DNA of 64,000 bases from Halobacteriales archaeon YIM A00013 (GTDB lineage: Archaea; Halobacteriota; Halobacteria; Halobacteriales; Haloarculaceae), in assembly GCA_025041195.1 (NCBI GenBank), contig JAKCFM010000002.1:62001-126000 (forward strand), read 5' to 3'. This document shows positions 12,441 to 47,850 of the stretch, one piece after another; position 1 is the stretch's first letter, and every line of letters starts with the position of its first letter. The notes below the pieces were generated by a model that was not told the origin of the DNA, made no database searches, and worked only from the letters and a program-made list of their open reading frames with translations. The position numbers and the translations under genes were made by a program.

Positions 12441-12457
12441 CGGGGTGAATTACCCCG
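12441..12457. mobile_element. right-end hairpin of the IS1341-type element
   Basis: CGGGGT (12441-12446) and ACCCCG (12452-12457) form a 6-bp hairpin with a 5-base loop, directly after the ancestral stop of tnpB (12460-12462). In IS200/IS605 elements the right end carries such a hairpin and also forms the 3' part of the guide-scaffold (omega) RNA, so the element boundary is probably here. Confidence 0.55.
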
Positions 12458-12501
12458 CCCTACTCACTCGCCGCAGACACGGCTCGTTCCTTGAGGACGG
12501 G

Positions 12502-12556
12502 GTCTCGCAAATCGCGAAGCGATTTGCTGGGTACGGGAAATCTACGATTTCCCTTG
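12502..12556 (+). repeat. double-hairpin element, copy B (in the 3' end of tnpB)
   Basis: A 55-base insertion bounded by GACGGG and ACTTCC of the tnpB coding sequence. Stem 1: GCAAATCGC (12507-12515), loop GAA, GCGATTTGC (12519-12527). Spacer TGGGTAC. Stem 2: GGGAAATC (12535-12542), loop TAC, GATTTCCC (12546-12553). It opens with GTC and its last base joins AC to give GAC. Confidence 0.8.
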
Positions 12557-12682
12557 ACTTCCTGTTTCAATGACGTACTTTGCAGATACAGGCGTATCTA
12601 CAGGGAGCGCAGTCTCCACAGGCATTGATTCGGAGTATCCCACTCCTACGTCTTCGAGTCCGCTTGAAAGAATGTTCCAGGC

Positions 12683-12734
12683 CGTCACCAGAAGCCTGCG
12701 GCTTCTGGTTGCCCGCCAGATGTAATCTGGCGAC
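12683..12734 (+). repeat. double-hairpin element, copy C (inside tnpB)
   Basis: A 52-base insertion between the GCC codons of the restored DTNAAWNIL stretch. It opens CGTCAC and closes GGCGAC. Stem 1: CCAGAAGCC, loop TGC, GGCTTCTGG. Stem 2: CGCCAGAT, loop GTA, ATCTGGCG. Length is not a multiple of three, so it shifts the frame of tnpB. Confidence 0.8.
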
Positions 12735-13987
12735 GGCGTTCGTGTCTCTGTCCGCCGTGAAGCCACACGCTGGACAGGAGTGTTCGCGGACCCACAACTG
12801 TTTGTTGGTTTTCACACCACACGCCGCACACTCTTTGGTGGTATCTTTCGGCTCAACCGGAACGTAGTGCGTTCCTTCGCGTTCGCACTTATACTCAAGC
12901 ATCCTGAGAAAAGTCCCCCATGCGGCGGATGCGCGGTTTCGTGAGTTCGAGTCAAACTGCATCATCCCCGCGACGTTTAAGTCTTCGACAGCGACGAGAT
13001 CGTATTCAGTGGCGTAGTAGTTCGACAGTTTGTGTAAGAAGTCGCGGCGCTTTCGCTTGAGGTCAGCGTGGCGTTCGGCCACAACCTGCCGTTGTTTCTC
13101 CCAGTTGTTAGAGCCATGTTCCTTCCGCGAGAGGCTACGCTGTGCACGTACCAACCGTTCACGTTCGTCCGAGAGATCGAGCGACCTGACAGCCGTACCG
13201 TCGGTATCGTGAGCATACTTGAGAATCCCCACGTCGATACCGACGCACTTCTCAGGGGTTTCAGGTTTTTCTGTTGGAGCTTCGGACGTTTCGACGCCGA
13301 ATATGGCGAACCACTCGCCCGTTTGTTCCTTTTTCACCGTAACCTGTTTGATAGTCGCATTCTCGGGGATCTCTCGGTGGAAATGAACCGGTATTGTTCC
13401 GATCTTTGAAAGCCGTAGGACGGTCTGGCCACTCGTGTTCTTGAGCTCGAACCCAGACTGTCGGTAGGTGAACGATCGGTACTCAGTCGGCGCTTTCCAT
13501 TTGAGCAGGCCAACCGCACGACCATTATCCTTCGCGTCTTTGAGCCGTGAGAGGTTGGTGTACAATCTCTCAACGACGTTCTGAAGGGTGCGAGAATACA
13601 GATCAGTGAGGTCGTCCCACCACTGCTTTATCGACGGGAGTTGATTGATTTCACCGTATTTCGTCGTCTCGTCTTCTCGGTTGAGTCGGTGGAGGAAGTG
13701 GTTATACACTTGCCGATACAGATCCCGATGCCGGTCCAACGTCTCTCGGTGACTGTCGGACGGGTCGAGCCTATACCGGTAGTTGTAGTTCATCTATGAG
13801 TTCGTCCAATTAATCGCGGTTGAATGAAGAGAGATGCAGACGATTCCCCTGAATCCACTCGTCCTGGTCACCGCTGATGTTGATTGGCTTCCGCTTCACT
13901 ATATGTATGTACCGAATGGAATATGTATTAAGTACTTCGATTATGGGGGGCCGAGCGTCGTACGTGTCAGGGAACTATGCGGAACTG

Positions 13988-14040
13988 TATCCCCTCCCTA
14001 CTCACTCACTCCGTTCATTCGTTGAGGAAGGGGGCTTAGG
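13988..14040 (-). mobile_element. relic of a second IS1341-type tnpB 3' end
   Basis: On the minus strand this reads like the last codons and right end of the neighbouring tnpB: a CCTCAACGAATGAACGG stretch, then GTGAGTGAGTAGGGAGGGG, against CCTCAAGGAACGAGCCG and GCGAGTGAGTAGGGCGGGG at 12460-12500. The rest of that tnpB is gone. It lies in the 430-base gap between tnpB and trmB-like gene 1, in the same orientation as the larger copy. Confidence 0.6.
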
Positions 14041-14124
14041 TCCTATCTCCAAATAACACGCAGGCACAAATGTGATAGTCAACAATTAATATCTGCAATT
14101 TCCGAAGTAATTACAGATCGAATG

Positions 14125-14199
14125 CCTCGGAGTCGCACAAATCGCGGAGCGATTTGCTGGAGACATGAAATCTTCGATTTCCATTGCCTTGCCCCGAGG
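14125..14199 (+). repeat. double-hairpin element, copy D, with an outer stem
   Basis: Stem 1: CAAATCGC (14138-14145), loop GGA, GCGATTTG (14149-14156). Stem 2: GAAATC (14167-14172), loop TTC, GATTTC (14176-14181). The core runs about 14132-14187 and is the closest relative of copy B. CCTCGG (14125-14130) and CCGAGG (14194-14199) flank it and can pair, which would enclose the two hairpins. It lies just downstream of the TrmB-like gene and could also act as its terminator. Confidence 0.7.
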
Positions 14200-47233: not shown

Positions 47234-47850
47234 TCAGATAAGCAGATTCCATTCGAATGACTGTAACAAATTGTCGGCAGTTTTGGTTTTGTGTTGCTGA
47301 AGCAGTTTGAGAGCGAAGAAGTTTTTCTTTTTAGCTCGAAAGACACGCTCAACGCTATTTCGATCTCCATGCTGTTCGTATCTGAAATCGAAGCTTTGCC
47401 GACGACACGCATTTTATAACGAATGTGAACCATCAACGAGAATCACAGCCGTTTCAACGTCATGTTTCTCGGCAAGTTCTATAAGAAACGATTGAGCAAG
47501 AACGGTGTTCGTTGTTGGTTCAAGACTTATATATGGGAATCCATTTATTTTAGGGTTGACTGCCGTCACGAGAGTAAGCTCTCGTGGGTTAACCAGAAAT
47601 CAAGATTTCTAGTCACCGCATACAGTCAATACCGCTCACTGTTAAGTCGGACCACGGTCTCGTCAACCGCAAGGTGATCTGGACTTCGGCCATCCCCTGG
47701 CTGTAAATCGGCTTTGTAAACCAGATATGGACGGTTAAACGTACTCGTTTGTCACCAAAGACTTCGAGGATGGAAACAGTATTTGAAATCAATAGTCCAG
47801 CACGAGCAGTTCCGTGTTGACCCCGTATAATCTTGTGTGATTGGGACGAT
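47234..47850 (-). pseudogene. IS6-family transposase pseudogene
   Basis: The reading frame of an IS6-type DDE transposase can be followed in pieces: LLISNTVSILEVFGDKRVRL; YKADLQPGDGRSPDHLAVDE with the first catalytic Asp, then TVVRLNSERY, a TGA where homologs have Trp, LYA; then after a double-hairpin insert (47564-47616) AVNPKINGFPYISLEPTTNT, AEKHDVETAVILVDGSHSL with the second Asp, a TAA, and FRYEQHGDRNSVERVFRAKK with the Glu region. It has at least two nonsense codons, one insertion and an upstream frameshift. Confidence 0.8.
47564..47616 (+). repeat. double-hairpin element, copy E (inside IS6 transposase remnant)
   Basis: A 53-base insertion that separates LYA from AVNP in the IS6 remnant. 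It opens CGTCAC and closes AGTCAC. Stem 1: CACGAGAG (47567-47574), loop TAAG, CTCTCGTG (47579-47586). Spacer GGTTAACC. Stem 2: AGAAATC (47595-47601), loop AA, GATTTCT (47604-47610). It shares its ends and spacer style with copy C. Confidence 0.75.

Follow-up and report, generated by a model that had tools for sequence, protein, structure and literature searches.

Two double-hairpin insertions in a haloarchaeal tnpB gene, probable copies of small palindromic mobile elements that favour IS200/IS605-type DNA

The 64-kb window, the whole stretch of DNA analysed here, carries an insertion sequence of the IS1341 type whose tnpB gene, a relative of the CRISPR nucleases borne by mobile DNA, is interrupted twice (Table 1). 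The interrupted gene retains the Pfam domains OrfB_IS605, Cas12f1-like_TNB and HTH_OrfB_IS605. When the flanks of both inserts are joined, tnpB reads as a 408-aa open reading frame ending PVLKERAVSAASE and followed by TAG at 12460, and its product aligns with that of the intact paralog L014 without gaps (363/408 identical).

Table 1. Features of the insertion sequence, its two inserts and related elements in the window (a caret marks the insertion point)
Feature	Position	Strand	Basis or remark
IS1341-type insertion sequence (IS200/IS605, tnpB only)	12445..14052	(-)	paralog homology ends there
IS left end	after TTAT (14056-14053), ~14052		paralog comparison; boundary good to a few bases
IS right end, ...GTAATTCAC	12445		paralog comparison
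tnpB, twice interrupted	12460..13793	(-)	Pfam and joined-flank alignment
Insert 1, family A double-hairpin element, 52 nt, GTC...GACG	12683..12734	(-)	none in five paralogs
Insert 1 site (site I)			behind the NA codons of DRDTNA^A
Insert 1 hairpin 1	12714..12732	(-)	ssDNA fold
Insert 1 hairpin 2	12687..12709	(-)	ssDNA fold
Insert 2, family B double-hairpin element, 55 nt	12502..12556	(-)	L002 filled, L013-L016 empty
Insert 2 site (site III)			within the codons of ETGS^P
Insert 2 hairpin 1	12535..12553	(-)	ssDNA fold
Insert 2 hairpin 2	12507..12527	(-)	ssDNA fold
Second family B copy, 83% identical	14128..14190	(-)	between trmB and IS left end
Third double-hairpin element, diverged, intergenic	47565..47616	(+)	model R1, 36.1 bits, E 4.6e-7

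Read on the minus strand, insert 1 is GTCGCCAGATTACATCTGGCGGGCAACCAGAAGCCGCAGGCTTCTGGTGACG (52 nt) and insert 2 is CAAGGGAAATCGTAGATTTCCCGTACCCAGCAAATCGCTTCGCGATTTGCGAGAC (55 nt). They differ in sequence, falling into families A and B, and share the same architecture. Folded as single-stranded DNA they reach z scores of -6.36 and -6.33, with no shuffle equally good, and they are the top two double hairpins of the window. Insert 1 matches covariance model R1 at 75.3 bits (E 7e-17). The third element in the window folds with a z of -5.26. The second family B copy sits within a GCCTCGG.../...CCCCGAGG palindrome, and the family B copies L003, L004 and L005 are nested in a longer palindrome, GCCTCGGGGTC...GACCCCGAGGC, an arrangement that recalls H. 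neapolitanus, where CGTC dimers lie in palindromes (PMC3733652).

We compared the six close copies of the insertion sequence in the source genome: the window copy, L002, L013, L014, L015 and L016. Site I is filled in the window copy only and empty in the other five, whereas site III is filled in both the window copy and L002 and empty in L013-L016. Family A elements also occupy a further position, site II, in L013 and L016, where they face opposite ways. The coding region is uninterrupted in two of the six, L014 and L015, and a double-hairpin-like insertion lies near the left end of L014. Because L013-L016 are empty at both sites, and L002 at site I, the length differences at sites I and III are read as insertions, not as deletions elsewhere. 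Likewise, since L002 has insert 2 without insert 1, the two are read as separate events. A sequence-only reading had placed inserts of 52 and 55 bases at these coordinates, each shifting the frame, and held that they were independent and that removing both restores the TnpB C-terminus up to the TAG. All of this is borne out by the paralogs and by the two lengths, both one more than a multiple of three. The finding named there as fatal to it, homologous TnpBs that naturally contain the extra residues, does not apply to the window gene, whose close homologues lack them.

Insert 2 alone, the state of L002, ends the protein at ...ETGSQGKS (399 aa), so that this older and shared insertion would have trimmed the tail. 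With insert 1 left in, the frame of the window gene continues to 12567, giving 408 aa of which the 40-aa tail is foreign. Insert 1 cuts the predicted protein after the NA of RuvC-III, and the rest is lost, which likely entails loss of nuclease activity. Because this separate event would cut TnpB just past its last catalytic aspartate and shift the frame, the window TnpB is probably inactive.

Family A elements are laid out as GTC, hairpin, GGGCA[A/G], hairpin, GAC(G), with stems that mostly begin [GA][CT]CAGA and loops mostly of 3. In an alignment of 23 seeds, 98.2% of stem cells are paired, 14 of 20 pairs are changed on both sides, and the 62 double-sided changes were equalled in 0 of 500 shuffles. 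Among 117 distinct matches, in an alignment that was fitted to the model and so leans towards it, the hairpin stems (helices 2-3) hold more than 400 double-sided cells versus about 14 one-sided (G-U) cells. The stems vary yet stay paired, with almost no G-T pairs, and the near-lack of G-U intermediates favours a DNA palindrome over an RNA. At 66 sites other than site I, a G follows the 3' GAC in 82%, which is CGTC on the opposite strand, and the base preceding the 5' GTC is not fixed; this G probably belongs to the element. A strict target motif outside tnpB was considered and set aside, as these 66 sites give weak preferences, mainly that G.

The elements are widespread in haloarchaea. Within the family to which the source genome belongs, model R1 has matches in 93 of 146 genomes and 21 of 22 genera; with 40 candidates scored per genome, such counts are lower bounds. 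In the source genome itself, 27 distinct matches occur, and some of these stand in tandem. An exact scan of 84,980 species with a 29-base degenerate pattern gave 44 matches, in Haloferax, Halorubrum, Haloquadratum, Natrialba, Natronorubrum, Natronomonas, Haloarcula and other haloarchaea; the title of one record gives just 'uncultured archaeon', and the remainder name haloarchaea.

Several single loci merit mention. Directly left of the window, a double-hairpin unit of 55 bp is repeated about four times in tandem, with 99% identity between the units (L109, G000:C2:59739-59958). One element with equal flanks is present in two species, in the source genome (L096, where it overlaps an ABC transporter ATPase gene) and in genome G039 (L165), and therefore some copies have been inherited for long. 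Two copies (L102, C2:321569, and L005, C1:1544502) lie near a Cas6-like gene and one of the RAMP family, possibly by coincidence.

In the source genome, 17 of the 27 R1 matches lie within or adjoin IS200/IS605-type elements, which by a rough estimate make up about 1% of that genome; model R1 was seeded in part with tnpB-borne copies, so this enrichment may be overstated. Across many genomes, 65 of 122 sampled elements have a TnpB match no more than 400 nt away, a fraction that may be biased upward by sampling that started from a tnpB-borne query. The degenerate pattern contains no flanking sequence, and for 35 of its 44 matches the distance to a TnpB match is at most 60 nt; by eye, most of the remainder have flanks like site I or like a right-end hairpin. 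Besides site I, recurrent positions in tnpB are just before RuvC-I, YRQSG^FELK, SES^PVETA, sites II and III, and the end hairpins. Two single tnpB genes, L097 (C1:813878-814891) and L121, carry four double-hairpin copies each.

The sequence-only reading had suggested a preference for tnpB 3' ends, which double as guide-RNA scaffold. Other tnpB genes do bear similar inserts near their 3' ends, and the preference is real, but it is wider than suggested and covers IS200/IS605-type elements as a whole, with copies at left-end and right-end hairpins, before RuvC-I, at YRQSG^FELK and at DxNA^A, as well as in ordinary genes. Insert 2 lies where we take omega RNA scaffolds usually to be, and site I presumably falls at or past the edge of the usual guide-RNA scaffold. 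The copies at the left end and near RuvC-I speak against the scaffold as the sole reason for targeting. Among ordinary genes, an in-frame copy lies in a low-molecular-weight phosphatase gene of the source genome (L095), and further in-frame copies lie in genes for an alpha/beta hydrolase, an NAD-binding epimerase-like protein and a nitrite/sulfite reductase; in this they resemble the Rickettsia palindromic elements, which also sit in frame within genes. At two loci (L161, L172) in-frame elements lie, by eye, in the N-box LFRNA^VEH of a putative histidine kinase, and their hairpin 1 is in part a repeat of the host's AVEHG codons, which looks as though the target had supplied the copy for one arm.

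Site I is a precise hotspot in the RuvC-III motif DxNA^A, directly behind the first A codon, and DRDANAA aligns on DRDENAA of a TnpB-type PDB chain; the aspartate of this motif is presumably catalytic, as judged by ISDra2 TnpB. Among all fetched sequences, 42 distinct tnpB genes are filled at site I, with inserts of 48 (7 genes), 51 (12), 52 (22) and 54 nt (1). Thirty-eight inserts face one way, 3 are reversed (L034, L035, L049) and 1 is unclear. Twenty-two shift the frame by one, and the other 20 keep it, all of them stop-free. Of the 109 top TnpB matches fetched, only 3 are filled at this site. A TnpB tree (FastTree, 136 rows, the site left out) requires 15 changes of state, at least 10 of them on well-supported branches, with gains and losses taken together and filled rows added deliberately. 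Across haloarchaea, site I thus appears to have received such elements in at least about ten independent events, and this pattern suggests very small mobile DNAs that are strongly drawn to tnpB. We found no report of a codon-precise tnpB hotspot in the openly accessible literature searched.

We consider it probable that haloarchaea harbour palindromic, non-autonomous mobile elements which prefer IS200/IS605-type elements, and that both inserts are copies of them. The unit would measure about 48-58 bp and consist of two short hairpins with about 4-7 bases between them; in the main family it begins 5' with GTC and ends 3' with GACG. Both hairpins would move together by means of an enzyme supplied in trans, probably in the form of single-stranded DNA or of extruded hairpins. 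IS200/IS605-type DNA and certain G+C-rich motifs would be chosen, without target duplication; the targets would include the RuvC-III DNA (GAY NNN AAY GC[G/C] ^ GCN) and also end palindromes. By analogy with inteins and homing introns, a subfamily of about 50-bp palindromes might even act as a homing-like parasite specialised on tnpB and aimed at the conserved RuvC-III DNA, its 48- and 51-nt frame-preserving variants keeping the host nuclease gene open; we put this combined reading forward with considerable reserve.

The elements could be miniature IS200/IS605 derivatives, akin to palindrome-associated transposable elements (PATEs) with fused end hairpins, that are moved by the Y1 transposase TnpA. 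Their two hairpins, the lack of any target duplication seen and their position inside other IS605 elements all fit, and there is a precedent in Haloquadratum, where ISHwa23 is reduced to a 52-bp PATE (PMC3119063). Yet a comparison of Y1 transposase with the elements over genomes (61/95 versus 32/51, p = 0.86) gave no co-occurrence, and for this reason Y1 transposase was rejected as the motor. Element-rich genomes without a Y1 match include G051, G053, G124, G055 and G039. The source genome has two Y1 loci only and no transposase linked to the elements, and a non-exhaustive search found no tnpA flanked by such hairpins. By eye, moreover, the hairpins are unlike the IS end hairpins here, which are of the CCTCGCCC...GGGCGGGG type. 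We therefore regard a miniature insertion sequence as a doubtful account, though past or horizontally supplied enzymes may have served as the motor.

For part of the pattern, the main rival is recombination between tnpB genes, by which one or a few insertions at site I would have spread through gene conversion. This would explain why a single junction is filled mostly in one orientation (38 to 3) across many tnpB genes, and why 48-nt variants are identical in different tnpB genes. Insert 2 is also identical in two diverged paralogs: 69 nt are the same in two tnpB genes that are about 88-92% identical around it, an identity that may leave room for gene conversion. Against this, site I is filled in genes whose TnpB proteins are about 25% identical, too diverged for easy recombination, the lengths and hairpins of the inserts differ, reversed copies occur at site I as do opposite orientations at site II, and unrelated genes also host the family. 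As a general explanation recombination thus seems unlikely.

It seems more unlikely still that there is no targeting at all, and that insertions merely survive in tnpB as it is dispensable. Most ordinary genes would not tolerate frameshifts, and degenerate tnpB genes hold up to four copies, as would be expected if survival alone were at work. The repeated changes that the tree needs at one junction and the orientation bias argue otherwise, as do the large open reading frames by six non-tnpB copies and two other repeat matches, among which there is no other transposase family.

Finally, it is very improbable that TnpB or the omega RNA scaffold natively includes the double hairpin: the position of insert 2 and, in a sense other than that foreseen by the sequence-only reading, the 20 of 42 in-frame site-I copies would suit it, but the insert is absent from nearly every top TnpB match and from the closest paralogs, which rule out native TnpB sequence, the elements occupy many positions and unrelated genes with almost no G-U pairs in their stems, and the sole Rfam hit in the window, a sub-threshold match to RAGATH-18 (E 0.44), is missing from the paralogs and was taken as chance.

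Together, probable copies of non-autonomous palindromic elements such as these would represent a widespread archaeal miniature mobile DNA in clear view, and RNA-guided TnpB genes would be hit repeatedly, and with codon precision, by a further selfish element. With so many filled and empty pairs, the motor of the elements, their rule of target choice and their effect on TnpB are open to direct tests in haloarchaea amenable to cultivation and manipulation.

Small mobile repeats have been described in Haloquadratum walsbyi, among them SMR-A (HqIRS42, 43 and 55; Dyall-Smith et al. 2011, PMC3119063), and these repeats attack IS605-type elements in 104 of 192 element-in-element events, for which a role in defence was proposed. 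Like the elements here, SMR-A has inverted ends, carries no transposase, causes no target duplication (seen here at filled versus empty junctions) and prefers IS605-type transposons and PATEs, lying in their near-terminal palindromes. SMR-A is about 110 bp long, has conspicuous inverted repeats at its ends and occurs in copies that are commonly more than 95% identical, whereas the elements here measure 48-58 bp, have two separate hairpins with widely varying stems, and are set apart from it by that description. They also differ in their codon-precise hotspot inside tnpB and their in-frame copies in ordinary genes. PATEs (PMC3119063) are likewise short, have near-terminal palindromes and make no target duplication; their palindromes match those of IS605-type transposons, while the hairpins here look different by eye.

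Next to SMR-A, two further kinds of repeat are the nearest known systems. REPINs, as defined by Bertels and Rainey 2011 (PMC3116915), also join two inverted palindromes and a spacer in one unit, with compensatory changes and tandem clusters; they are built of GTAG-type REPs, extragenic and tied to a RAYT transposase, whereas the elements here have GTC/GACG ends without GTAG, are often intragenic and have no linked transposase found. CGTC-tagged REP dimers, which include the Rickettsia palindromic elements, were reported from five bacterial phyla and no archaea (Di Nocera et al. 2013, PMC3733652). They share with the elements here the dimers of hairpins, intragenic copies, nesting in palindromes, the lack of a dedicated transposase and perhaps the CGTC/GACG tag, but they have stems of 8-9 bp starting with AT, loops of 4-5 and CCA tails, which the elements here lack. 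Because a common logic runs through SMR-A, REPINs and CGTC-tagged REPs, while at least one tested defining feature fails for each, we file the elements as a variant and not as a member of these kinds. The puzzle of small palindromes without a transposase, posed by all three, now reaches intragenic sites across haloarchaea.
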